Origin: Prochlorococcus sp. AG-409-L21
GTDB lineage: Bacteria; Cyanobacteriota; Cyanobacteriia; PCC-6307; Cyanobiaceae
Length of the DNA stretch: 64,000 nucleotides
Direction: 5' to 3'
NCBI GenBank assembly: GCA_003215475.1
Contig: QCKH01000004.1
Location: 1 to 64,000 of the forward strand
Shown here: positions 9,009-40,387 of the stretch, piece by piece
Layout: each line of letters starts with the position of its first letter
Numbering within the stretch: position 1 is the first letter of the stretch
Program-made: the position numbers and the translations under genes
Notes under the pieces: generated by a model
What the model was told of the DNA's origin: nothing
Seen by the model: the letters and a program-made list of their open reading frames with translations, nothing else
Databases searched by the model: none

Positions 9009-10832
9009 ATGGAAAAGAAAATTAATTATAATAGTAGAAATTTTGCACAAGTACGGGCAGAATTAATTGCGTTTATACAACAATATTACCCAGAAGTATT
9101 CTCTGATTTTAATGATGCATCGGTGGGTATGATGTTATTAGAATTAAATGCTGCGGTGGGAGATATGTTATCTTTCCATACAGATAGAATGTTTAATGAG
9201 ACACAAATTAATTATACACAGGAAAGGTCATCAGTCTTAGAATTAGCTAGAACTTTTGGTGTTAACATACCTGGTAAAAGACCTAGTATCACTATGGTAA
9301 ATTTCTCTGTTGTAGTACCTGTTGATAGAAATGATGGGGATAAAGCAGATTATAGTTATGCACCTTTATTATTAAAAGGGACACAAGTAAGTGGTGGTGG
9401 AAAAATATTTGAATTGGCAGACGATTTAGATTTCTCTTCACGTTTTAGTAGTAGTGGTATACCTAATATCACAGTAGTACCAAATGAAAATGCTAGTGGG
9501 GGTATAGATAATTATACACTAACAAAAAGGGCACTTGTTTTAAATGGTATAACTAAAGAATATAAAAGAGTAATTGCTAGAGAAGATTATAAACCATTTT
9601 TTGAAATAATATTACCAGAAGAAAATGTTATTTCTATAGAAAATATTATCACATTAGAGGGTACTAATTTAACCACACCACCAACACTTAAAGATTATAC
9701 TACGTTTGATAATAATTATTACGAAGTATCTGCATTAGCCGAAGCGGAAAAGTTTATTGAAGATCCTAATGTACCAAGTACTACTGAAGGTATTAAAGCA
9801 GGAAGATGGAAAAATATACCACAAAGATTTATAAAAGAATATACAGATAATGGTTTCTGTAAAATTATTTTTGGTGGTGGCGAAATTGATACTTCAGAAT
9901 TAAATGATTTTATTGGATGTAGGGGGCAAATTGATCAGATTGGTGATTTTGTTAATAATAATTCATTGGGTACTATACCAGAACCTGGAAGAACAATGTA
10001 TGTAAAATATAGAGTAGGTGGTGGTGCAGATAGTAATGTTGGACCTAATGTACTTAAAAGTTTAGGTGAGGTGTTTATGGTAACTCCGGGAGAAGACCCA
10101 GCAATTAATCTAAATATAAGAAATAGTTTAACAGTAAATAATGTATTACCTGCAATTGGTGGAAAAGAGCAACCTTCAATAAATGAAATAAGAAATTTAG
10201 TTAAATATAATTTTTCATCACAAAATCGATGTGTTACTATCAAAGATTACCTTTCTAGAATTAGTTTAATGCCTGGGAAGTTTGGTGTACCTTTTAGAAC
10301 AGGTGTGTGGGAACAAAGAAATAAAGTTAATATAACTATTTTAGCGTTGGATGGAGATTCCAAACTTACGAATACGTCTACAAGTACACTTAAAGAAAAT
10401 ATTTCTGAATATTTGGCAGATTATAGAATGTTAAATGATTATGTCACCGTAAAGGACGGTAGAATTATTAATTTATCTTTTGAAATATCTCTTTTTACCG
10501 ATAAATCAACATCTAAAGGTGAGATTATGTCAGATGTTATTGAGAAAGTTGATGAATATTTTGATATTAATAAGTGGGAGATGGGTGAAAATGTTTATTT
10601 AGCACAATTAATTGAAAATATTAACAATGTAGGTGGTGTTTTAAATGTTACTGACTTAAAAATATTCAATAAAGTAGGTGGGAAATATTCATTAAATGAA
10701 ATCTCTCAACCTTATATAGATGATGCAACTAAACAAATAGACATATCGGATGATTATACCTTATTTGGTGAACCAGATGCTATGTTTGAGGTTAAATTCC
10801 CAAATAAAGACATTAAAGTAAGATTTAAATAG
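9009..10832 (+). CDS. baseplate wedge protein (gp6/baseplate-J-like)
   Basis: 607 aa; position after gp25; ELNAAVGDMLSFHTDRMFNETQINYTQERSSVLELARTFG N-terminal region typical of this family. Confidence 0.8.
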   Translation: MEKKINYNSRNFAQVRAELIAFIQQYYPEVFSDFNDASVGMMLLELNAAVGDMLSFHTDRMFNETQINYTQERSSVLELARTFGVNIPGKRPSITMVNFSVVVPVDRNDGDKADYSYAPLLLKGTQVSGGGKIFELADDLDFSSRFSSSGIPNITVVPNENASGGIDNYTLTKRALVLNGITKEYKRVIAREDYKPFFEIILPEENVISIENIITLEGTNLTTPPTLKDYTTFDNNYYEVSALAEAEKFIEDPNVPSTTEGIKAGRWKNIPQRFIKEYTDNGFCKIIFGGGEIDTSELNDFIGCRGQIDQIGDFVNNNSLGTIPEPGRTMYVKYRVGGGADSNVGPNVLKSLGEVFMVTPGEDPAINLNIRNSLTVNNVLPAIGGKEQPSINEIRNLVKYNFSSQNRCVTIKDYLSRISLMPGKFGVPFRTGVWEQRNKVNITILALDGDSKLTNTSTSTLKENISEYLADYRMLNDYVTVKDGRIINLSFEISLFTDKSTSKGEIMSDVIEKVDEYFDINKWEMGENVYLAQLIENINNVGGVLNVTDLKIFNKVGGKYSLNEISQPYIDDATKQIDISDDYTLFGEPDAMFEVKFPNKDIKVRFK

Positions 10833-20843: not shown

Positions 20844-23800
20844 ATGCCACAACAAAATCAAAATAACACCAATAATAATAATAATAGAAAAGTTATTAAA
20901 GTAGCGGGCTATGCGAAAAGAAAATTTTTCGATGGTGGTATTGAATATAGAGATTTTAGTGATGATTTAGTTGGTTTACAATTAACTGATGATGGTGGTT
21001 CATCGTTATTTACGATGGGTAACTTTAAAGTTACTACTAATTTATCCCCTAAATTAAATAAAACGTATAATCAGGGTACATATTCTGATTTTTATGATTT
21101 AGATAGTTTGGATGATAAACAATTTGGTGCGGTAAAAGTACAAAAAAACCAAAAAGCGGGATTAAATTTAGATATAACAAATCCTTTAAGTTATATTTTA
21201 TATGGTTCTTCCGAAGAAAAAATTAGAGTTTCATTGGAATATATACAAGAATATTTTCCAGCCGCAATTTATGTAGATAACAAAATAGGTGCAATAACGG
21301 GTAATAATATCACAGATTATGTCTATGATAATTTAAATGATGAGACTAGTTTTACTGTTAGTACTAATTATTTTACCAATCCTTTTGGTATAAATTATAC
21401 ATTATCTTATAATCTAGTACCTGAGGATCAGATACCCAATCCACTAAGAAATTTAACAGTTAATTACAATCAGTATGTTATAGAACATAATGGAATAAGT
21501 AAAAAGATAAAATCTTTTAGTGGTTCTACTACTAAAACTAATGCAACATTAAAATTTGTTGTAGAAGGAAATCCCTTTCCTGAAATAACAGGATTAAATT
21601 TTTCACAATTTACTTTTTTAAATCCTACTTATAATGCATCTATTCCATTTTTTGTAAAACCAAATGAATTAAAGTGTGAAGAATTTTTCAGTGGTTTGAA
21701 TGACTTAGAAAAAAACTTATTGAATAGAGATGTATACCCTATTTATACGGCAACTTTTAGTCTACCAAAAGAAACCACTCAGGGGGTTATAGTTTATAGT
21801 GATGAAAAGATAACTTTTCCTGTTTTAACAGATGGATACAATCTTAACTTTTTTGATGGGATATATATTACTTATTTAGATGAAATCACTTCTATTGGTG
21901 AAACTTTAGATAAGTTTAAAACTGATATTATAAAGAGAAAATATACTGCAGAAGTTATAACAGGATTTGATACTATCCCTAGGGGTGATGGTGGAGAAGA
22001 TATGGTGATAGATGGTGCAAAAGCAACTAAATTACTTAGAATTTATGGGGTTGAGTTTGATGAAGTTAAAAAATATATTGACGGTATTAAATTTGCACAT
22101 GTTGTTACTTATGATAAGAAAAATAACACACCTGATTCATTAGTAAAAGATTTAGCTAATATGTTAGGGTTTAGTAAATTTGATTTCTTAACTAACCCAA
22201 ACATTTTAAATAATGTATTACCGAGTAATGGTAAAGGATTATTTAGTGGTACATCTACACCACTTAGTTTAGAACAAATAGATATTGAGTTATACAGAAG
22301 ATTAATATTAAATGTTGCTTGGTTATGGAAAAGTAAAGGTACACGTAAAGCAATAGAATTCTTATTTAGATTTATTGGTGCACCAGAATCTTTAGTAAAC
22401 TTTAATGAACATATTGTAATTGCAGATAAACCCGTAAATATACCACATTTAAAAAGTTTATTATATTTGTATACGGGTAGTTCTAATTTGAAAGATTTAC
22501 CATTCGATGATGATGGTTACCCCTTACCAATACCCAACGGTGGATTAGTATTAGTTGGTTTTGATAACACTACTACACCACCATCACCAATATATGAAAC
22601 TAATTGGTTTCAAAAATCTGGTGGGTGGTATAGAGAAACTGGTGGTTTAAACCCACCTATTGATATAACTGAGGATAATAATCCACACGCGGGTGTATAT
22701 GATGGTGGTGCATTTTATTTAGAACAATTTTTAACCTGTCCATTTCCAAATGAGATAGTTAGTAAGTTTATTACTTTAACAGGTAATACACTTTATGAGA
22801 ACCAATTTATAAATTATAATGATGGGTTTATAAATGGTACAATGGATAATGATATATTATATATTACTCCAGTATCTTCAGTTAATAATCAAATAATAAC
22901 CGAAGGTATTGATATTGATTTTACTGTGGTATCTTCACCAGCAACTTCAGGAGGAACTACTATTTTTGAACAATTATGTACTGAAGCACTCGAAGAATAT
23001 AATGAATGGGTAGAACTAATTAAAGAAAATTGTGAATTGATTTACTCACCCGAATGGTTTAGAGTACAACAAAATTATATTGTTGCGAAAAATAATTTAA
23101 ATAGAGAACAAAGTAGTAGGGGAACAGGTATTAATGAAGCATTAGAAATATGTATAAATGTTGATTGTGAAAATATTGAAGTTATAGAAAACCCTTGTGA
23201 TCATTATGAGATGATTAATGAAGATGGGTTTATATATTTTGTTAATGAAAATGGTAAAAAGGTATTTTTTGAGGAATTTCCTCAATGTTGTGTTTCGGCA
23301 GGTGGAGAATATTATACATATGTAAACCAAAAAAATCAAAAAGCATTCTTTTGTGCTAGCGAATCCCCTTGTATAGGAAATCCTATTAGTAGTAATGGAG
23401 AAGCAATTTTATTTGAAGTAGAGGGAGTTAATGCAGTTCCCGATAATATTATTTCAATAACTACCCCGAATAATGATAGACCCACAAACGATGCTAGACG
23501 CACCACAGAAAATGAGTTATGTAAAGAAAATAGTGGTAGTAATACACTTAATGGGTGTTTCCAATTAACCGAACAAGGAGAATATTACTTTGGTTTTAAA
23601 ACTAAACCTAATGAAGAAGATTTTAGTACTAAAATTAGTCCTAGAGAAGCACCTTTTGTTGTATATGATAAAAATAATAATCCTGTAGGGTATATCCCAC
23701 AAGTTCCTGGTATGACTTTATTTACGGAAGGAATTGTTGCGATTAATTATGTTAAAAGTAATGGTGGTATTGTTTATCCATCTTATCAGTCATCGTTTGG

Positions 23801-26800
23801 AAACAATTCCGAATCAAGTGATCCACAACAAGCCTTAGATAAATATGTGAATAACATACGACAAGGTGGTGAAGTACCTTCAGACTTTTATAAATATTTT
23901 ACATCAGTTGATTGTGATAAGAAAAATACTACTTATGAATCTAGTATAGAATGTTGTACATATCATGGATTCGATCATTATTATGTGAATATCACTGACC
24001 CAACGGATGGGTCGGTTAGACAAGTTGTTTATTGTAGACCTAAAGATACTTCAGCAACTGGTGATCTTACACAACCCTCTACACCTGGTTTAGGGGATAT
24101 ATTAGACCCAGGAAAAGAAATAGATAAAGAAATAGAAGTAATAGAAAGAGAAAAAGAAGTAATAAATAAAAAAATAAGTGAAGAACCTTCTTTATCAAGT
24201 AAACAAAAAACCGAATTAACTACACAAAAATTAACTTTAGAACAACGTACACTAGATTTAAATTCGCAAAAACAAAAAATGGAAGTGTCAAATCGTAAAA
24301 CTATGACACCTGCCAATGAAAAAGGGTTTAATAAATACGTAGAAGGAAGTAACCTCAATGCAGTTAAAACAGAAGGTGATCAATTAGTAGTAGGGAAAGA
24401 CCCTAAAGGTGTATATACACAGGGAGTTGACTCTACAAAACCAAATAACCCAACCACTGATTTTGGTTCACCATTTAGTAATCCAGACTTAATGGATAGT
24501 ATTAATTGGGAAGTTGCTTCAGTAGATCAATATGGTAGAATAACATTTATACCTATAGATCGTAATTATGATGATGTCTTAAGTTGGGAATTATTGGCAG
24601 GAGAAGGTGCTGATTTATACAAAGAATGTTGTTTATTACAAGGTTATACTTTTGGAGAATTCCAAATTAACCCACAAACAAATGAGTTAATACCCTATAA
24701 CGGACAACCTAATGAATATACTAATGGTAGTACTTTTTATGCTTGTGTAGATAATACAACCTTACCTTGTACCGAACTTAAAGATGTAAAATTAGTTTTT
24801 GGTAGTAATGGTAATAATGGTTTCTTTTTACCGGAAAATACAGAAAGTAATGAGGTAACCATTAAGTTTGATTATATGATTAAATATAATGCAGAAGAAT
24901 TAATTAATTGTGCAAATATAGAAGTATGTAAAATACCATTAGATTTATATAATAATAGTATCTATAACTTAGATTGTAGAAACTTTATCGTCTTTACTCA
25001 AACCGAAGATAATAAGAATATTTTAAAAGATAATATAAACTATATTGATTCTGACGTATTTGCACAGAATGATTTTAGTTTAAATTCACCCAATGTAGGG
25101 GATTTAGTTGTAAGTGAATTAGATGGTATACCTAATTTAATACCTTATTGGTCAACACAAAACTTACAAGTATGGCAAACTCCTGGTTTACAACAACAAA
25201 TAGATGTAGAGGGAGACTGTTGTAAAGCATTTGGTGGTAATTTATTACCAATAGAACAATGGGGTCCGGTAAACGAAGATAATGTTTATAATATTAGACG
25301 TGAGTTTAATATTGCAATCAAAGCAATTTCTAATAATACACGACAACCAGAATGGGTAACACCTGAAATGTATTCTAATTTTAAATTAATCAACGATAAC
25401 TTAAATAAGGTTAATAAAATTATAGAAGAAGGTTGTTTAAACTATACTCTATTTACGGAAGATAATTTCTGTGATGATTTTGAAAGATTAATAACAACTG
25501 AAAAGGTATGTGCGTTACTAACACCATTAGAATTAGGGGTTAATAGTGAAATGCTAAAAGAGTATTGGAAACTAATAAACCAACTTTTATTAATGCAAAA
25601 AGAACTAGAAATCTGTGTTGAAAGAAAAGAAGGTTTAAGTAAGATTATTGAAGAGGTAGATAAAGAAATGGTTTTAGTAGAAGTAGAAAAAGAAACTAAA
25701 AGAGGAGATTATAGAAAAACAGAAACTAATTTAGAAAATGACCTACTAACTAAACAAAGAGAAATTTTAGAAATTGATGATACATTAACTAACTTAAGAA
25801 ACCAAAATACGGCAATTGATGTAGTTAAACAAGATAATTTACCTAAATTAGATTGTAACTTATACCAACAACAGATTAAAGAGGCACAATCATTTAATGT
25901 TGAGGAATTTTGTAGAAATCAACCACAACCTACTACAGATAATCCAGATGAGATTTTATCTGCATTTAATACATGTGTAAATCAAAAAAGATTTGAGATA
26001 GAACAAGAAGTAAAAAAATATCAACGATTATTTGAAAGTTGTGTTAATAGTAATGTTTATAGTGAAGAAATAACTAGGGCTAGAGTTAATAATGATACTA
26101 TAACTGAAGAAAGATTTACAGAAGAGTATAATACTACATTAAAACAAATAGATGAATTACAAGCAACAATTTATTGTGAAGATATTAGTGAGTTAAATGA
26201 ATCTCTTAGAACAAATAAGGAACAAGAAAATAATATTGAAAAAAATGTAGATGTTGTTGCAAATATTTTAGGTGTTGAACCAACTACTATTAGAAATGGT
26301 AATACAACTGATTTAACTACCGAACAAAAAGTTGAGGTGACTAGAGTTGCTAATGTGAATAAAACAACAGAAAATAAATTATTAATACAAAAAGAAGAAA
26401 AGGAACAAGAATTAAGAAGTTTAGAAACTTTTAAAACACAAGTACGAAATGAATTTAAAGAACAAGAAAGAGAATTAGATGAAAACCTAACCAATATAAA
26501 TAACATTAAAGAAAATATTGTTACAGAAAATAATAATACGGTAGGTAGGGATTGTTGTAAAGAAACTTTAAATGTTGTACGTAAATTAGTTAGTAATATT
26601 AAAAAATATAGAAATAATTTATATTATGAAACCGAAGCACTATATCAAGGGTGGTATTTACAAAGATTTGAAGAATATAAATTATTCGTCAATGAGAAGA
26701 TGGCAACTGCTTTTGAATATATGGATGAATTAAACCTTAATTTTAATATTGAAGTGGATAACACTTCTGTGGGTAGTCAACCACCTAATCAAATATCTTC

Positions 26801-28979
26801 TAATCTAACTACTTTACCAATAATGGGTAATAGTAACCCCATTTGGACATTCCAACCTAAAAATTATAGTGGAGTCGTTATTGGTGGGTCACAATACAAT
26901 TCAAATCTAATTGAAGATTCAATAACAACCGCATTAATACAAAATGGGTATCCTGGTTTAGATGCAGTATTTGAACCACAATGGCAAAATTTTGAGATGA
27001 CATTACCTCAAAATGTAATAGATAATTTAAGACAAAGTTACCCTAATAAACAATTTTATATTTCTTTGGAATTAGAAAATTATGAATGTAGTGTGTGTTT
27101 ATTAATTGATAATATTCAAATAAATTATAAAACATACGATATACTACCATTTTATAATACTGAGGGTTGTGGGTTACCAGAATTAAGTTGTGTTATAGAT
27201 AATAGAAAATCTTGGGTATATAAAGGAGATACAATTAACCCAGTTACTCACTTACCTGATGGTGAATGTCAAAAAAATGAAGTAACTTGTGCAACTCCAC
27301 TACAAATAACTGCACAAAATAGATTATGGCAAAATTTAGAGTATAGATACACTGAATATGATTTTAATCATTCAGATTTAATCATCAACAGTAAATCTGC
27401 AGCATTTCAGATAGATCCGTCTAAGTCTATTGAATGTGATGTTTATAATTTTTGGAGAAATATTGATTGTGATGAATGTCCTACCTCTTGTACGAGTGGT
27501 GAAAGTATTACATATGAAGGTAAAGTACAATATACTGCTAGTTCTTACACTGATTACAGTGTTGTATTGAGTGGTACTTCTGCTGGTGGTTTCACAGGAG
27601 ATTGTAATACGTATGTGAGTTTATTAAATACTAATACTAATTTATTAAAAGAAGAATATTATGTATTAACGGCAGATTATTCACAAGCATTAAGTGCTGG
27701 ATACACTGATTTTATTAATATTGGTGGTAGTATAGACACATTAAACATAGTAGAGAATGATTGTCAGGGTGATACTATAGTGTTAGGAAATAGATTTGAT
27801 TTAAATGAGGAACAAAGATTAATTGTTGAGGATAGTGACGGAACGGTTTCTTTATGGGGACTTTATGTATATACTGGTTCGACACCTTATAGTGGTGGTG
27901 ATATAAATGAAGTTATTAGTGGTGTATCTGCACAAACATTTAATCAGACTAGTGGTATGACAGAAGAATGTTGTGAATCATTAAATAAAACATTATCATC
28001 TAAAGGTAAAAAAGGATTAAGTTTAGATAAAAATTATGTGTGGGACACAACATTGAGTGGTTGTACTTGGAGAGAAATTAATGATGGTCAAGGAGATTGT
28101 ACACATTGTGGTAACACTACCGAATCTTCCTTTACTGCTACTAGTAGTGGGTTAACTTGTGAAGTAGTTAACAAAACGATATGTGTAAATCCGGTAGATT
28201 TCTTAGATACTCCCCCATCTCAAATAAAAGTAAAAGAGGTGTTTGATGAAATGGTACAGAGAAATTTAATTAATGCACAAAATAGACAAACACTTAGTGG
28301 ATACCCAACACTTAAACTATTTTACGAATTATATTTAAATGCAACTAATTGTGGTAAAGATTATAGTGGTAAGTTAACTTACAATAATCTATTCCAATTT
28401 ATGGATTTAATTGGGGATTATTGGTTAGAATTAATTGAACAAGTAATTCCATCTACCACTATTATGGAAGGGTGTGAAAACTCAGGTAAAGTTTATAGGA
28501 ATACTATTTTTGATAATAATAAATTTACCTATAAGAAATACAGTTTAAACTTCTTAGAAGTAACTAATGAATGTAATGTTAGTGGTGTTACAAATAATTC
28601 AATAGGTCAAGAAACTGTAGATGTTGCAGTTGAAGAAGTTTGTTTAGGTGGTGGATGTTTAGGACAATCTAATAAAGATTGTGAAGATAGTATAAGTGTA
28701 TTACAAGGACAAATTGATACGTTACAATCCACTATAACTAGTATTGATGATCAATTACAAGTAATACAATTAGCAATAACATCATTAAAATCACAAAATA
28801 ATAGTAATAATACTAGTAAAGAAACGTCTAAAGAAAATACGTTTAAACAAAGAGAAGACGAAAAGGCAAAAAAAGAAGAAAATAATAAAATTAAAGAGGA
28901 GGTAAGAAGACAAGAAGAAGCAGCAGCTAGAGAACAAAAAGCTAGGGACGCAAGAAATCAAAGAGATCAATTAAGTTAA
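20844..28979 (+). CDS. giant tail/baseplate protein (2711 aa) with coiled coils and repeated CC-containing modules
   Basis: Single ORF; LILNVAWLWKSKGTRKAIEFLFRFIGAPESLVNFNE resembles tail-protein/baseplate segments; coiled-coil regions in its second half. Confidence 0.75.
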   Translation: MPQQNQNNTNNNNNRKVIKVAGYAKRKFFDGGIEYRDFSDDLVGLQLTDDGGSSLFTMGNFKVTTNLSPKLNKTYNQGTYSDFYDLDSLDDKQFGAVKVQKNQKAGLNLDITNPLSYILYGSSEEKIRVSLEYIQEYFPAAIYVDNKIGAITGNNITDYVYDNLNDETSFTVSTNYFTNPFGINYTLSYNLVPEDQIPNPLRNLTVNYNQYVIEHNGISKKIKSFSGSTTKTNATLKFVVEGNPFPEITGLNFSQFTFLNPTYNASIPFFVKPNELKCEEFFSGLNDLEKNLLNRDVYPIYTATFSLPKETTQGVIVYSDEKITFPVLTDGYNLNFFDGIYITYLDEITSIGETLDKFKTDIIKRKYTAEVITGFDTIPRGDGGEDMVIDGAKATKLLRIYGVEFDEVKKYIDGIKFAHVVTYDKKNNTPDSLVKDLANMLGFSKFDFLTNPNILNNVLPSNGKGLFSGTSTPLSLEQIDIELYRRLILNVAWLWKSKGTRKAIEFLFRFIGAPESLVNFNEHIVIADKPVNIPHLKSLLYLYTGSSNLKDLPFDDDGYPLPIPNGGLVLVGFDNTTTPPSPIYETNWFQKSGGWYRETGGLNPPIDITEDNNPHAGVYDGGAFYLEQFLTCPFPNEIVSKFITLTGNTLYENQFINYNDGFINGTMDNDILYITPVSSVNNQIITEGIDIDFTVVSSPATSGGTTIFEQLCTEALEEYNEWVELIKENCELIYSPEWFRVQQNYIVAKNNLNREQSSRGTGINEALEICINVDCENIEVIENPCDHYEMINEDGFIYFVNENGKKVFFEEFPQCCVSAGGEYYTYVNQKNQKAFFCASESPCIGNPISSNGEAILFEVEGVNAVPDNIISITTPNNDRPTNDARRTTENELCKENSGSNTLNGCFQLTEQGEYYFGFKTKPNEEDFSTKISPREAPFVVYDKNNNPVGYIPQVPGMTLFTEGIVAINYVKSNGGIVYPSYQSSFGNNSESSDPQQALDKYVNNIRQGGEVPSDFYKYFTSVDCDKKNTTYESSIECCTYHGFDHYYVNITDPTDGSVRQVVYCRPKDTSATGDLTQPSTPGLGDILDPGKEIDKEIEVIEREKEVINKKISEEPSLSSKQKTELTTQKLTLEQRTLDLNSQKQKMEVSNRKTMTPANEKGFNKYVEGSNLNAVKTEGDQLVVGKDPKGVYTQGVDSTKPNNPTTDFGSPFSNPDLMDSINWEVASVDQYGRITFIPIDRNYDDVLSWELLAGEGADLYKECCLLQGYTFGEFQINPQTNELIPYNGQPNEYTNGSTFYACVDNTTLPCTELKDVKLVFGSNGNNGFFLPENTESNEVTIKFDYMIKYNAEELINCANIEVCKIPLDLYNNSIYNLDCRNFIVFTQTEDNKNILKDNINYIDSDVFAQNDFSLNSPNVGDLVVSELDGIPNLIPYWSTQNLQVWQTPGLQQQIDVEGDCCKAFGGNLLPIEQWGPVNEDNVYNIRREFNIAIKAISNNTRQPEWVTPEMYSNFKLINDNLNKVNKIIEEGCLNYTLFTEDNFCDDFERLITTEKVCALLTPLELGVNSEMLKEYWKLINQLLLMQKELEICVERKEGLSKIIEEVDKEMVLVEVEKETKRGDYRKTETNLENDLLTKQREILEIDDTLTNLRNQNTAIDVVKQDNLPKLDCNLYQQQIKEAQSFNVEEFCRNQPQPTTDNPDEILSAFNTCVNQKRFEIEQEVKKYQRLFESCVNSNVYSEEITRARVNNDTITEERFTEEYNTTLKQIDELQATIYCEDISELNESLRTNKEQENNIEKNVDVVANILGVEPTTIRNGNTTDLTTEQKVEVTRVANVNKTTENKLLIQKEEKEQELRSLETFKTQVRNEFKEQERELDENLTNINNIKENIVTENNNTVGRDCCKETLNVVRKLVSNIKKYRNNLYYETEALYQGWYLQRFEEYKLFVNEKMATAFEYMDELNLNFNIEVDNTSVGSQPPNQISSNLTTLPIMGNSNPIWTFQPKNYSGVVIGGSQYNSNLIEDSITTALIQNGYPGLDAVFEPQWQNFEMTLPQNVIDNLRQSYPNKQFYISLELENYECSVCLLIDNIQINYKTYDILPFYNTEGCGLPELSCVIDNRKSWVYKGDTINPVTHLPDGECQKNEVTCATPLQITAQNRLWQNLEYRYTEYDFNHSDLIINSKSAAFQIDPSKSIECDVYNFWRNIDCDECPTSCTSGESITYEGKVQYTASSYTDYSVVLSGTSAGGFTGDCNTYVSLLNTNTNLLKEEYYVLTADYSQALSAGYTDFINIGGSIDTLNIVENDCQGDTIVLGNRFDLNEEQRLIVEDSDGTVSLWGLYVYTGSTPYSGGDINEVISGVSAQTFNQTSGMTEECCESLNKTLSSKGKKGLSLDKNYVWDTTLSGCTWREINDGQGDCTHCGNTTESSFTATSSGLTCEVVNKTICVNPVDFLDTPPSQIKVKEVFDEMVQRNLINAQNRQTLSGYPTLKLFYELYLNATNCGKDYSGKLTYNNLFQFMDLIGDYWLELIEQVIPSTTIMEGCENSGKVYRNTIFDNNKFTYKKYSLNFLEVTNECNVSGVTNNSIGQETVDVAVEEVCLGGGCLGQSNKDCEDSISVLQGQIDTLQSTITSIDDQLQVIQLAITSLKSQNNSNNTSKETSKENTFKQREDEKAKKEENNKIKEEVRRQEEAAAREQKARDARNQRDQLS

Positions 28980-29607: not shown

Positions 29608-32526
29608 ATGGCGAATATAAAAGGAAATATTACAAACCCAATTACTTTAAACGGTAAAGTTGTTTCAGAAATAGAGGTAAGGACTGATTTTACTCCAACC
29701 TTAAATGTTAGTTATTTGGCAAATTCTTTATCACCTTCCCTTTTTACTGTAAATAACGCTTATTTCTTAGATGATTTGTCTAATGTGAGAGATTTAATTT
29801 TTAAAAGTGTACCAGTAACATTAGGGAATAGTGCATTAAAAGATTCATCCCCTAATAAATTATGTTTATTTAATTATGAAGTGGATGGTGATGGTAATTT
29901 AGTAGATATGGATATATTTGCTAATATCCCAATGCAATACATAGATGGTGGTAAAACGTATACACAATATGGTGCTATTAGTGAGAAGAAAAATTATTTA
30001 GGGTGGGAGCCTTTGAGTAATGAAGACAAATATTCACACATTGAGAGAACAGATGTATATGGGTTTGATTATCCACAATTTACCCCTAGAGGCACTAGAA
30101 AGATACCTGTAACAGAAAGTGCGGATACTTTATGTGGCCCAGTTACTTATGTAGAAAATGAATATACCTATGATAGATTAAATTATAATTGGTTTTTCGG
30201 TAATAATGCGGGAATAAATTTTAATACAATAAAAAGTGGGGCAACACCAGTTACTATTACAGGTAGTGTAGTATCACAAGAAGGATGTTCTTCGATATCT
30301 GACCAAGAAGGTAATCTATTATTTTATACAGATGGTGAAAATGTTTATACTAAGTTAAATACTATAATGTTAAATGGGACTGGATTAAGTAGTTCAGGAA
30401 CCTCCACACAATCTAGTATTATAGTACCCCAACCTGATAGTAATAATTATTATATTTTCACTACGGATTTTGAAGGGAATCCAGATGGGTTTGAATATAG
30501 TATTGTTGATATGACTTTACAAGATGGTTTGGGGCAAGTAACTACAAAAAACATTAAGTTGATTAATAATCCAATAACTGAAAAAGTAACTTCTTGTAAT
30601 CACGCAAATGATGAAGACTATTGGGTTATTACACATACAAGTGGAGATTCTAGATATTACGCTTATAAGTTAAGTAGTAGTGGGTTAGTTGCACCTGTTA
30701 TTTCTAATATCGGTCAAGTTCATAACAGTAGTAGAGGGTATATGAAAACTTCTTTAAATGGGGATAAATTAATTTCCTTATTATACGATGAAAACATAAT
30801 TCAAATTTTAGACTTTGATGCGTCGGGAGGTACATTAAGTAATGAAATAGTTTTAACGGGATTAACATTTAGTAATGGTCCGTATGGATTAGAGTATTCT
30901 TCAGATTCTACTAAATTTTATGTTTCGGATGGGGCATCCCAAACTATTAAACAGTTTGATTTGAGTTACACTTCTTCCACAGAAATGGTGGAAAATGTAA
31001 TAGAAGTGGCATCTATAACTGACTCTAGTTTAGGTGCGTTGCAAATGGGTCCGGATGAAAAAATATATGTGGCAGACAATTTAAAAAATCATTTACATGT
31101 TATACATCGACCTAATGGATTAGGGGTACAATGTAATTTTCAAGAAAGAGGGTTTTATTTAACTGGTGTCACAAGTGGTATAACTTCTACATGGGGGTTA
31201 CCAAATACCGTCACAACCAAAGATCTTTCTTGTGACAGATATATTTACGTCAGTGAAAGAGATAGAACACCTTTTGAATTTGATTTAATAATGAATGATG
31301 TATCAAATGTTATTCAACCTAATATGTTGAACTTTACTGCGGAGATATATCCATTTAACCATAATACGGGTGCTTTTGATGTAGAAAGTTTATTTAACCA
31401 ATCATTTACTTATGATAGGTTTAGTGGAGAAAGCGGTACTACTTTATCTATACCAGTTAGTGGGGTTAGTGAAGGAGAATTTATAATTAAAGGTTATTAT
31501 GAATATCCGATAAAAACATTGCTCCAAAAACAGTTAGGTTTTAGAAGAAATAGTATAAATAATTATAAAAGAGGTACAGAGTATAATATCTATAACCCTG
31601 AAACGGATTGGTATTTTTTAAATATATATGAGGCAGATAAACCTACATTTAGTAATACAGATGTAACACCCGTCAGTACTATTAGTAATTTGAAGGTTGT
31701 TAGTACTTTTACTAATTCTGGAGACACTATTTTTTATTATAATTCTCAGTCTGATCCTATTGTAACTTATAATGGTGTGGTATTGGCTAAAGATATAGAA
31801 TATAGTGCAATTACAACAGGTACAACCCCATATGTTTTATTTAATACACCAACATTGGCGGATCAAATGGTTACTTTAGCTTATGTAGAAGAAGGTAATA
31901 CAAATGAGTTAATTGCAGATACTTATACCGTTATTGCACCAATAGCGAGTGGTAAAACAAATGAACAAACTTCTGAAGATAAATTGTATTATAATACAGA
32001 TAGGGCTAATTTTGAATTCTATTTAGAGATACAACCTTATGGTGACGTTATTTTTACATTAAATGGTACACCATTATCTAATAATATAGAATATCTTCGT
32101 TCTTCTAGTGATTTTAGAAGAATAATAATATTAGTTGATATTAAACCGGGAGATTTAATACAAGTATTTTATAATCCATTAACGGGTGTGTTTGGACCTT
32201 TACAAACGAATGAACCAACATTATCTTGGTCTATAGTTAATGCTCCTACATTAGGACAAAGTGGATTGTTCACAGTTCAAATAACCAATGTTACTGACGA
32301 GGATTATGAAAATGTACAATATTTTGATAGTGTACCATATGTGATTGGACAGAGAACATATTCAGTAACAATGAATTTATCTAATGCAGTGGCAGGTGAT
32401 AAATTAATGTATAGAATAAAAAATGAAAAATTTTATACCCCAATAGTGGGACAAATAATAACAAGTGTTGCTTATAGTGACTCAATTCCTATAGAAATAG
32501 TCACAAATAAGGGAAATATTTATTAA
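29608..32526 (+). CDS. tail-associated protein carrying a bacterial surface-type beta-propeller domain (972 aa)
   Basis: YNWFFGNNAGINFN…EGCSSISDQEGNLLFYTDGENVYTKLNTIMLNGTGL…SSTQSSIIVPQPDSNNYYIFTTD resembles the propeller of flavobacterial secreted/T9SS proteins. Confidence 0.75.
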   Translation: MANIKGNITNPITLNGKVVSEIEVRTDFTPTLNVSYLANSLSPSLFTVNNAYFLDDLSNVRDLIFKSVPVTLGNSALKDSSPNKLCLFNYEVDGDGNLVDMDIFANIPMQYIDGGKTYTQYGAISEKKNYLGWEPLSNEDKYSHIERTDVYGFDYPQFTPRGTRKIPVTESADTLCGPVTYVENEYTYDRLNYNWFFGNNAGINFNTIKSGATPVTITGSVVSQEGCSSISDQEGNLLFYTDGENVYTKLNTIMLNGTGLSSSGTSTQSSIIVPQPDSNNYYIFTTDFEGNPDGFEYSIVDMTLQDGLGQVTTKNIKLINNPITEKVTSCNHANDEDYWVITHTSGDSRYYAYKLSSSGLVAPVISNIGQVHNSSRGYMKTSLNGDKLISLLYDENIIQILDFDASGGTLSNEIVLTGLTFSNGPYGLEYSSDSTKFYVSDGASQTIKQFDLSYTSSTEMVENVIEVASITDSSLGALQMGPDEKIYVADNLKNHLHVIHRPNGLGVQCNFQERGFYLTGVTSGITSTWGLPNTVTTKDLSCDRYIYVSERDRTPFEFDLIMNDVSNVIQPNMLNFTAEIYPFNHNTGAFDVESLFNQSFTYDRFSGESGTTLSIPVSGVSEGEFIIKGYYEYPIKTLLQKQLGFRRNSINNYKRGTEYNIYNPETDWYFLNIYEADKPTFSNTDVTPVSTISNLKVVSTFTNSGDTIFYYNSQSDPIVTYNGVVLAKDIEYSAITTGTTPYVLFNTPTLADQMVTLAYVEEGNTNELIADTYTVIAPIASGKTNEQTSEDKLYYNTDRANFEFYLEIQPYGDVIFTLNGTPLSNNIEYLRSSSDFRRIIILVDIKPGDLIQVFYNPLTGVFGPLQTNEPTLSWSIVNAPTLGQSGLFTVQITNVTDEDYENVQYFDSVPYVIGQRTYSVTMNLSNAVAGDKLMYRIKNEKFYTPIVGQIITSVAYSDSIPIEIVTNKGNIY

Positions 32527-32570: not shown

Positions 32571-34778
32571 ATGAGTTATATAAATAAACAAAATACCGCT
32601 TTAGTAAGAGTTAAGTTAACTGATATTGGTAGAGAACAATTAGCACAAGGAAAATTAACATATAATTCTTGGGTGGCAGGTGACTCAGAAGTGGACTATA
32701 ATTATGTTAAGGGATGGAAAGAATTTGTACCTAGTAGTAATGCGGCAACTGGGGAGTTTTTCTTTTATGGGGGAGACGGTTCAGTAACTAGAAATATTTA
32801 TTCAAAAGTTTTAAGACCTAAAGATGAACAACCATTTTTCACTTCATTTCTTTTAAATAACCAAAACGAATTTATACAACCAATTGATACACAAAGTAGT
32901 TTACAATTAATAAAAGGTGTTGTAAGTAATCAGGCGGCAGATAGAGGATTTTTCTCTGGGTCGACTGTTGATGTTGGGTTAACGGCACAAACTTCAACAG
33001 AGTTTATTAAAGAAAGTGGTACAATTGATTTATCTAATTTTACGGGTGAAATTGAGGCTACACCCTTCATACAAGGGGTTTTATCAGGAATTACACTAAC
33101 CGCAACCAGCGAAGATGATTATATAATGTTTAGATTTAGTAATCCAACGTTAGGTGATGTGGATACACCACAAATGACTGCAGCAACTGTCAATCAATTT
33201 TATAATATAACAAGTATTAGTGGTTCGACTATCAAAGTAGATAGAGAATTACCTAATTTTAGTGGTTTTGCTGGTACAATTATAACTTATTATACTCTAC
33301 CTGGTGGTGATGATCCGGAAGATGATTATTATGGATTACCATCGTTATCTTCTTATTGGAATACAGGTACACTTTCTTTTGATAGTAGTTGTGATATTTG
33401 TGTAGAAAATATACCAGTGTGGAATATGAACAATGTGTGGACAGAAAATATGGCAGGACAATGGAAAGAAAACACACAAAATTACCATAATCACACATTA
33501 TTTGGTTCAGAACAATATGCAGGAACTAAACAATATCTAAAATATAATGAAAACCCAACAGTTACACTTAATAGTAATCAGTTATCTGTTAGTTATATGG
33601 ATCAATATGTAAAAGGTATTTCTATTATCCATTATACTAATAGTTGTATTTCTAATTTTTATGGGGAAATGTTTAATATAGACGGACAAAGTGGTAAATT
33701 ATTGAATTTAGATATTCCTGTAATGTGGCACAGACGAAGTGACGGAGGAACTGCCAGTGGTACTACATTAGGAATGAGATTTGTTAGTGACACAATAGAA
33801 AAAACATTAAGTAATACTGATATAGAATATTATGATTTAATAGAGTTTAGTGGAATGTCTGTTACACCAGATGCACCATTAGCAGTGGGTAAAGTATTCC
33901 CACAATTAAAGATTGTGGTTATTGATAATGAAGAATTGTTGGCAGCAATGTCTTATAAATCAAATAGAAACTACTCACTTCCTGATTTGGCAGCTAATTT
34001 AATCCCATGTGTAGATGGTGATTGTACCGGATGTTTAAGTGCGGGCGAGTCGATGTTTTTAACATATGCTTTACAATATACGGGTAGTACAGGATTTACA
34101 ACTGTTTTACCTTGTCAAAGATATACAATACTAGAAAATAATACTCAAAGTGATAAAGATTTACAATTTAGAATTAATAATGTGAGTCAATTACCTTATA
34201 TGAGAAAATTAGAATCACCTTCATATGATGGTTATGGATTTTATGCAAATCAGTTTGTTTTATTAGCACAAAAAATAAATAAAGCAACACAGACTAGACC
34301 AAATCCATCTGAATGGAGAGTAGTAGATTACACAAGTCCTTTAATAACTAGTGTAGCTGGAGAAACTATTGACCCAATTCTTTTGGAAAATCAAAATAGT
34401 GCAAATACAGGATTTGAATTAATAGGTAGTGTGTATGATGCAGCAAGTGCCAATACATTTAATTTAGGGGTTGAATTAGACTTACCTAAAGGAGATAGTT
34501 ATGGTAAATTAAATTTTGGGGATGAAAGATTATTTTATGGTAATTTAAGAACTTTTATTGGTGCAACAATATACAAAACTTTATTTACCATAAATGTGGA
34601 TGGAGCTACTTTACAAAGTAGTTGTAATACCACTTATACTGTAGGTACAGATAGATTTATTTCTGAAGTGGGAATTTTAGATAGTGATGGTAATTTAGTA
34701 TTAGTAGGTAAATTATCTAGACCAATAAGAATAGCGGATAGTAGTACTGCCTCTATTGAACTAACAATTGATTTTTAA
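32571..34778 (+). CDS. probable virion structural protein (735 aa)
   Basis: N- and C-terminal segments resemble those of the next gene. Confidence 0.75.
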   Translation: MSYINKQNTALVRVKLTDIGREQLAQGKLTYNSWVAGDSEVDYNYVKGWKEFVPSSNAATGEFFFYGGDGSVTRNIYSKVLRPKDEQPFFTSFLLNNQNEFIQPIDTQSSLQLIKGVVSNQAADRGFFSGSTVDVGLTAQTSTEFIKESGTIDLSNFTGEIEATPFIQGVLSGITLTATSEDDYIMFRFSNPTLGDVDTPQMTAATVNQFYNITSISGSTIKVDRELPNFSGFAGTIITYYTLPGGDDPEDDYYGLPSLSSYWNTGTLSFDSSCDICVENIPVWNMNNVWTENMAGQWKENTQNYHNHTLFGSEQYAGTKQYLKYNENPTVTLNSNQLSVSYMDQYVKGISIIHYTNSCISNFYGEMFNIDGQSGKLLNLDIPVMWHRRSDGGTASGTTLGMRFVSDTIEKTLSNTDIEYYDLIEFSGMSVTPDAPLAVGKVFPQLKIVVIDNEELLAAMSYKSNRNYSLPDLAANLIPCVDGDCTGCLSAGESMFLTYALQYTGSTGFTTVLPCQRYTILENNTQSDKDLQFRINNVSQLPYMRKLESPSYDGYGFYANQFVLLAQKINKATQTRPNPSEWRVVDYTSPLITSVAGETIDPILLENQNSANTGFELIGSVYDAASANTFNLGVELDLPKGDSYGKLNFGDERLFYGNLRTFIGATIYKTLFTINVDGATLQSSCNTTYTVGTDRFISEVGILDSDGNLVLVGKLSRPIRIADSSTASIELTIDF

Positions 34779-34788
34779 AAATATTCTA

Positions 34789-36087
34789 ATGGGATTTATA
34801 AGTTCAGCAACAACAGTATCAATAACCGCTAAATTAACTTTAGCTGGTAGACAAAGACTATTAACACAAAGCAATCAAATATTAACACACTTTGTTTTAG
34901 GTGATTCAGATGCCAATTATAGAACTAGTGGTTTGTTAAGTACAGGTACAGTTCCCGCTAATAGTGGTAACTTAGGTGAAAATGGTGGAGTGAATGATAA
35001 TATAGATGTGGGTGTAGGTATTAAAAATAAATTATATTTAGATAATACACAAATTAATATAAAGCCAGTTGAGTCGGGTTCTAATGTAGTAAGTAACACT
35101 ACGGTATCATTAGGGGAAACTGTAGTAAGTGGTACTAATTTAACTTATGCATTATTAAATAAAAATGATGGTACATCATCTTTCACTAATTATTTTGAAA
35201 GTTTAAGATTACCTATACTACCATCTAAGAAAAATTTGTTTACTGGTTCTACATCAGCCGATGGTGGTTGGGCAGATACTGCGTTTAGTGGTTTGGCTAG
35301 TGATAGAGTATTAATGTTATCGATAAACACTGATAGTTATGGTGAATTAATAGATGGTAAGAGTATAAAAGCAACTTTACCAATAGCAACAGGGTATACT
35401 TCAGGTGGAGATGTTACTGGAATTACTACCTATGATTGTTATTCTACTTTTGTTAATAGTGGACAATTTAGTTTAGTACAACAAGATGGTAGATATAAAG
35501 ATGGTTCTGTTTTTACAGATGGGTTATTCGGTTCTAATTTCCCAGTTACTTATATGGTTTCTGATAATATACAACGACCAAATAATGATGTATTAAAAAG
35601 TTGGTCAACAGGATATGATTCATTTAAACCGTTTAGTGTTAATAATAAATCTTTGATTAATACTAAAAATGTTACACCAACTAACATTAATGCAGATAAG
35701 GTAATAGGTGTTGCTTATTTAGATAAAGGTTTGATTGCGTTTACGGATCCCGCAATTGTAGATAACATTGCTACTAATTTTTCAGGTGATACTGAAACCG
35801 GTATTGAGACAAATAGTTTTGGTTTCTATTATTATACTGGTGGTACATATAATACTACAGTAGATAGTATCCTAAATAATTTAGTACAAAATGTAGTATG
35901 TATTGCAGGAAGAGGAGAATTTTTTAGGTCTAATAACCCAACTATTGATATTAATGATAATGTGAGAATTAGTGAAGTGGCACTTACTGATGTTACTGGT
36001 GAAATATTAGCAATAGGGAAGGCAGATAGACAAATTATTAAAAAGAAGAATGACTTTGTAATATTTGATGTACAAGTTGTTATATAA
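34789..36087 (+). CDS. probable virion structural protein, paralogous termini with preceding gene
   Basis: ATG 34789 (MGFISSATTVSITAKLTLAGRQRL…) preferred over TTG 34768. Confidence 0.75.
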   Translation: MGFISSATTVSITAKLTLAGRQRLLTQSNQILTHFVLGDSDANYRTSGLLSTGTVPANSGNLGENGGVNDNIDVGVGIKNKLYLDNTQINIKPVESGSNVVSNTTVSLGETVVSGTNLTYALLNKNDGTSSFTNYFESLRLPILPSKKNLFTGSTSADGGWADTAFSGLASDRVLMLSINTDSYGELIDGKSIKATLPIATGYTSGGDVTGITTYDCYSTFVNSGQFSLVQQDGRYKDGSVFTDGLFGSNFPVTYMVSDNIQRPNNDVLKSWSTGYDSFKPFSVNNKSLINTKNVTPTNINADKVIGVAYLDKGLIAFTDPAIVDNIATNFSGDTETGIETNSFGFYYYTGGTYNTTVDSILNNLVQNVVCIAGRGEFFRSNNPTIDINDNVRISEVALTDVTGEILAIGKADRQIIKKKNDFVIFDVQVVI

Positions 36088-40014: not shown

Positions 40015-40179
40015 ATGATTAACCTAAATAATATAGAAAAATTTAAATTACTGTATAACGACGCAGTAAATAAAGGTGACGAAATGTTTGTGTTTGAAGG
40101 TAGGGATGTTCTTACTTCATACGCTAAATATGTTATTGAATATTTTAATAGTATAGTAAATGCTCGGGTGGTGGAATAG
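40015..40179 (+). CDS. small ORF (54 aa, MINLNNIEKFKLLYNDAVNKGDEMFVFEGRDVLTSYAKYV…) whose stop lies in tRNA-Leu
   Basis: ATG right after a promoter candidate; stop TAG 40177-40179; not in supplied ORF track. Confidence 0.45.
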   Translation: MINLNNIEKFKLLYNDAVNKGDEMFVFEGRDVLTSYAKYVIEYFNSIVNARVVE

Positions 40180-40245
40180 GTAGACACGCAAGACTTAAAA
40201 TCTTGTTCCCATTTGGGAGTGCGGGTTCGATTCCCGCCCCGAGTA
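40162..40245 (+). tRNA. tRNA-Leu (anticodon TAA)
   Basis: GCTCGGG…CCCGAGT acceptor, class II variable arm TCCC-ATTT-GGGA, GCGGGTTCGATTCCCGC T-arm, anticodon loop CTTAAAA; no encoded CCA. Confidence 0.93.
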
Positions 40246-40251
40246 CATATT

Positions 40252-40325
40252 GGACCGGTAGCTCAGCTGGATAGAGCATCTGCCTTCTAAGCAGACGGTC
40301 GAAGGTTCGAATCCTTCCCGGTTCA
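40252..40325 (+). tRNA. tRNA-Arg (anticodon TCT)
   Basis: GGACCGG…CCGGTTC acceptor, TCTGC-CTTCTAA-GCAGA anticodon arm, GAAGGTTCGAATCCTTC T-arm; no encoded CCA. Confidence 0.95.
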
Positions 40326-40387
40326 CTTTTCTTTACTTTAAAATTACAATTAACTTATAATTTATACTAAAGTCATTATACTTATTA

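Follow-up and report, generated by a model that had tools for sequence, protein, structure and literature searches.

A predicted seven-bladed beta-propeller, very likely akin to exported Bacteroidota proteins, is the constant part of a phage tail-cluster protein

The window, by which we mean the whole 64-kb stretch of DNA analysed here, is the first part of a contig of 83,794 bases (C4) that was assembled with a genome of 1.34 Mb (27 contigs, 70% complete). An identical contig is listed as viral in IMG/VR, and the phage genes of the window code for a ribonucleotide reductase, a DnaB-like helicase, a UvsX-like recombinase and a baseplate wedge protein; SbcC/SbcD-like proteins and an endolysin-like protein are encoded as well. 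The contig, which was met in one bacterial genome only, belongs to a large tailed phage that is best explained as myovirus-like. The wedge protein (positions 9009–10832, forward strand; PHROG 219, E 4e-23) shares homology with its counterpart in Flavobacterium phage immuto and with a protein of Microcystis phage Mel-JY01. Its closest full-length counterparts in the GenBank phage set, from Mel-JY01, an uncultured phage and immuto, are 25–28% identical, indicating a divergent large phage. A pair of adjacent tRNA genes, Leu(taa) and Arg(tct), lies at positions 40162–40326.

The gene studied here, P0001, occupies positions 29608–32526 of the forward strand, starts with ATG and codes for a tail-cluster protein of 972 aa with an internal beta-propeller, predicted at residues 192–534 (30181–31209). 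A preliminary description of this DNA had given the same reading frame, and all of the residues quoted there were found in the translation. Eight full-length relatives are 68–69% identical to P0001, and the wider family reaches down to 48% identity. P0001 is one of a series of tail-cluster ORFs, with the wedge homologue upstream and a DNA primase downstream, and by its position near the wedge homologue it is a phage tail/baseplate-cluster gene. Upstream of it is a giant ORF of 2711 aa (20844–28979, forward strand), which is poorly and only in part conserved in relatives and may be the variable part of the tail of this phage; several of its stretches are Cys-rich, for example ECCTYHGFDHYYV and QCCVSAGGEYYTYV. 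Downstream, on the same strand, are tail-cluster neighbours of 735 aa (32571–34778; 64–87% identity across relatives, no family match) and 439 aa (34768–36087; 54–83% identity across relatives). By eye, these two proteins look alike at their starts (VKLTDIGREQLAQGKLTYNSWVAGDSEVDYNY and AKLTLAGRQRLLTQSNQILTHFVLGDSDANYR) and at their ends (FISEVGILDSDGNLVLVGK and RISEVALTDVTGEILAIGK).

The order of wedge gene, large ORFs, fibre-like ORFs and primase gene is shared with Mel-JY01, in which the proteins at the equivalent place have no detectable relationship. No match was obtained when the GenBank phages were searched by tblastn with whole P0001, the 735-aa neighbour, the 2711-aa ORF or the most divergent propeller, and the GenBank phage collection that was searched thus contains no member of the phage group of P0001.

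The central segment of P0001 had been described as a beta-propeller, and structure prediction bears this out. An AF2 model of residues 190–545, computed from an alignment of 12 phage and 9 bacterial rows, reached a pLDDT of 90.4 and a pTM of 0.91 and contains about 28 strands, equal to seven four-stranded blades when blades are counted and assigned by eye from the DSSP string and from repeated motifs. The ring is closed by the final strand, WGLPN (residues 529–533), which completes the first blade. Comparison of this model with the PDB using Foldseek gave 884 matches at E ≤ 1e-3; among the matches listed, these are overwhelmingly propellers, including 6-phosphogluconolactonase-like, SMP30, YVTN and WD40 types. 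Since the TM-scores are modest (0.3–0.55), no one propeller family is singled out. Family libraries alone miss the fold: searches of the segment against Pfam, PHROG and NCBIfam gave nothing above cut-off, and the sole weak match was to the propeller family SGL/SMP-30 (E 0.013, residues 412–469, below cut-off). A viral fold library also contains several proteins of uncultured tailed phages that match the P0001 segment as propellers, so that nothing is unusual per se about a phage protein with a propeller. From the model and the bacterial homologues presented below, residues 192–534 are predicted, with high confidence, to form a seven-bladed beta-propeller.

The N-terminal flank (residues 1–189; 29608–30174, forward strand) is fast-evolving and of no known family, whereas the C-terminal flank (residues 546–972; 31243–32523, forward strand) is beta-rich and carries two related short repeats on the same strand, DPIVTYNGVVLAKDIEYSA (residues about 712–763; 31741–31896) and DVIFTLNGTPLSNNIEYLR (residues about 809–860; 32032–32187). 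Aligned with hhalign, the two repeats matched with a probability of 96 and an E value of 4.3e-9 over 32 columns. Neither flank matched a family in Pfam, PHROG or NCBIfam, and a PDB sequence search with P0001 returned chance-level matches only. The flanks had been taken for ordinary phage tail sequence; gene position and the internal repeat pair agree with this, but no known phage tail family was matched. A full-length AF2 model (15 phage rows) reached a pLDDT of 57, with residues 690–965 mostly at 65–89 and the N-terminal part at very low confidence. Because the model is poor overall and its N-terminus unusable, we make no claim on the N-terminal fold; Foldseek matches to this model are dominated by propellers and long chance alignments. 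Kinship of the flanks with the syntenic 954-aa protein of Mel-JY01 (profile match with E 0.02, probability 2%) and with the 735-aa neighbour was considered, and neither was significant.

A scan of GTDB genomes uncovered 16 loci with relatives that span the whole propeller domain at 34–44% identity (E 4e-76 to 1e-52, the values being relative to the candidate stretches), far beyond chance. These loci belong to eight Rufibacter strains and Sabulibacter (Hymenobacteraceae), and for the rest to Bacteroidales, Chitinophagales, Bacteroidota or Bacteroidetes MAGs and one Ignavibacteria MAG. The Rufibacter proteins have an apparent signal peptide and, after it, a propeller that makes up nearly the whole protein. 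Four other homologues end in a T9SS sorting domain, of type B (TIGR04131) in two MAG proteins (L051 and L056) and of type A (TIGR04183) in two more (L054 and L055), and one bacterial homologue carries SprB repeats and an L-type lectin domain. Thus, the propeller is indeed common to secreted, T9SS-sorted bacterial proteins, and its matches extend beyond phages to bacterial surface homologues; the preliminary description was also right to see a host-type module inside a phage tail-cluster gene, given the whole-length homology. Its attribution to flavobacterial proteins in particular was wrong, as the named strains are Hymenobacteraceae. We regard it as very likely, on the strength of these alignments, that the P0001 propeller is homologous to the exported Bacteroidota propellers. 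We know of no ligand for the latter.

The two kinds of protein have the whole propeller and its blade motifs in common but differ around it. P0001 has no sorting or PKD domains (searches against NCBIfam and Pfam covered TIGR04131, TIGR04183, CHU_C and Por_Secre_tail), its flanks are phage-specific, and its N-terminus, MANIKGNITNPITLNG, has by eye no hydrophobic stretch and no apparent signal peptide. Searches of limited sensitivity did not find the propeller in the 59 other genomes related to that of the contig, or in members of the same family in three larger draws. Broad genome draws likewise gave very few bacterial propeller homologues, although the first look of the search may miss many. 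In the own genome, one TIGR04183 domain was found; the searches of the host for SprA and TIGR04131 were run without a working control. As a separate observation, open stretches in two uncultured phage assemblies of 642 kb (L130; LR756502.1, 517342–519387) and 635 kb (L131; LR745206.1, 15118–16833) end in TIGR04131, with E values of 9e-14 and 3e-12. Both matches are above cut-off, and contamination of either assembly is possible; phage-encoded T9SS cargo would, if true, be unexpected.

Five scans of viral contigs yielded about 30 distinct contigs, of 31–254 kb, with a P0001-type gene. The propeller is present in 30/30 of the viral loci found by the C-terminal flank, the window contig included; the five contigs that flank scans caught and propeller scans missed proved to have it. 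No propeller-less or swapped version was found when viral contigs were searched with either flank. Two relatives differ by insertions: in L038 (7482–11135), about 260 extra residues lie inside blade 7, the last blade, and give a PA14 match below cut-off (E 9e-4), as if the propeller were exposed; in L034, about 80 residues are inserted in the N-terminal flank.

Among 15 phages, the propeller has a mean pairwise identity of 69%, compared with 49% in the N-terminal flank and 52% in the C-terminal flank, making the propeller the most conserved part of P0001. Pairwise dN/dS in the propeller is 0.03–0.09 in close pairs with informative pS, a range similar to, or slightly above, that of neighbouring genes; distant pairs are near synonymous saturation and their values are not for close reading. 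The propeller is under purifying selection. Compared with its nearest relatives, the window has 63–75% identity over the whole gene and 70–73% in the propeller, whereas the downstream neighbours are at 81–93%; at larger distance, conservation of the propeller (60–71%) is close to that of the 735-aa neighbour (64–74%). Because identity in the propeller is near 60–73% at all distances, exchange between phages was suspected. It is not supported, since the propeller and flank trees are without conflict and both group the window, at 100% support, with L002, L004 and L009; in the propeller tree, most of the deeper forks are poorly supported. Neither diversification nor module swapping of the propeller relative to the neighbours was found; the gene exceeds its downstream neighbours in divergence only when the closest relatives are compared. 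The simplest reading of the identity pattern is that of freely varying positions upon a strongly constrained core.

In a tree with nine bacterial propellers, the phage propellers form one clade (100/100), consistent with one capture, although the tree is unrooted and several bacterial branches are long. The idea of a captured host module is consistent with this result. A single old acquisition in the P0001 phage group appears likely, and so does transfer from bacterium to phage, with the qualification that an unrooted tree imposes on direction.

These data bear directly on the earlier proposal that the propeller is a recently captured, variable module that determines host range. The divergence of the propeller and the whole gene from the nearest relatives beyond that of the downstream neighbours is what such a module might produce. 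In contrast, the propeller occurs in all relatives found and forms one clade, no conflict is seen between its tree and the flank tree, the flanks are more divergent than the propeller, and dN/dS is well below 1. Comparison among phage relatives thus points to a fixed segment rather than a recent or swappable one, and we consider this reading very improbable; a host-range determinant in the usual variable sense is just as hard to credit.

The best explanation overall, on which we are evenly divided, is that the propeller, captured once long ago, has become a core module of a fibre associated with the baseplate and binds a conserved surface ligand. P0001 would be a structural, tail- or baseplate-associated fibre-like protein, presumably present in the virion. 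An ancestor of the phage group would have acquired a seven-bladed propeller of the kind exported by Bacteroidota, once, and the propeller would since have been passed down together with the rest of the gene. On the tail, it would form a platform, probably exposed, between an N-terminal attachment part and the C-terminal beta-rich part, and its conserved face could bind a broadly conserved host surface ligand, most likely a glycan. Polar residues common to phage and bacterial propellers (for example E225, Q268, E325, H332, H343, K380, E429, Q449 and Q479) fit a conserved ligand site, but they may equally determine the fold. By analogy with known phage propellers such as the platform of phi11 Gp45, which probably binds in this way, receptor or polysaccharide binding is plausible, and we give surface binding as the present function an even chance. 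As a rule, domains that bind receptors diversify faster than what lies next to them, and the P0001 propeller does not diversify faster than its own flanks, which counts against binding.

An alternative is a purely architectural role, in which the propeller would be an exapted beta-sheet platform that holds neighbouring fibre or baseplate parts while other, more variable proteins, for example that of the 2711-aa ORF, bind the receptors. A most conserved part that is never lost or swapped and is under purifying selection fits this role, and few of the neighbours are as little conserved as the 2711-aa ORF, the coverage of which is partial in relatives, although the loci of relatives may not span its whole length. 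However, the known phage propeller of phi11 Gp45 belongs to a receptor-binding protein (PMC4901313), and in bacteria the homologues occur as free proteins, secreted or at the surface, so that a phage-specific scaffold role does not explain the conserved residues shared with them. We consider an architectural role possible but somewhat unlikely. A tail enzyme, for instance lactonase-like or glycan-degrading, would agree with the 6-phosphogluconolactonase-like proteins, SMP30 and Drp35 among the top PDB fold matches, with conserved His, Glu and Gln residues in the propeller, and with the enzymatic propellers of some phage tailspikes, the endosialidases of K1F and phi92 (PMC4901313). Yet the TM-scores against these enzymes are about 0.4–0.5 at identities of 10–15%, and the SGL match is below cut-off; an enzymatic role seems improbable.

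Returning to ligand binding by a core module, a bolder version, which we find rather doubtful, is that this widespread group of large phages as a whole depends on one fixed, captured Bacteroidota surface propeller, a copy of a bacterial matrix or adhesion module, as a generalist first-contact anchor. Its ligand would be one that many Bacteroidota share, perhaps a glycan also bound by the bacterial secreted propellers, and specificity would lie elsewhere in the tail. In any case, P0001 connects a phage tail-cluster protein with exported Bacteroidota proteins at the level of sequence, which goes beyond a common fold. The propeller looks like a fixed tail part rather than a fast-changing host-range switch, which corrects the usual guess: the captured domain is the constant part of P0001, and a search for host range there would probably mislead. 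If phage and bacterial propellers do bind the same ligand, one assay would inform on both an uncharacterised exported family and a phage group.

Among known phage systems, the receptor-binding proteins of phi11 (Gp45) and 80alpha (gp61) consist of a stem, a propeller platform and a tower (PMC4901313, PMC7048315); in phi11 Gp45 the platform is five-bladed, there are two tower domains, and the propeller cavity was modelled with GlcNAc (PMC4901313). Like P0001, these proteins have a propeller in mid-protein, preceded by an N-terminal part and followed by two similar units (PMC4901313, PMC7048315), and they are baseplate-associated (PMC4901313, PMC7048315), as P0001 is by gene position. Unlike P0001, they have five blades and a helical coiled-coil stem and belong to Staphylococcus siphoviruses, and there is no sequence match; the resemblance is one of analogy, not homology. 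PhiKZ gp131C (4GBF), a baseplate-peripheral protein of a myovirus, also has a seven-bladed propeller (PMC4901313), the function of which is likewise unproven, but there it is C-terminal and in P0001 internal, and 4GBF is absent among the 50 fold matches listed. BACON domains, a Bacteroidetes-type module in tail-associated proteins of crAss-like phages with a possible role in host binding (PMC6949934), are a different domain and stand in tandem, with arrays evolving through transfer and duplication, whereas P0001 carries a single, fixed propeller.
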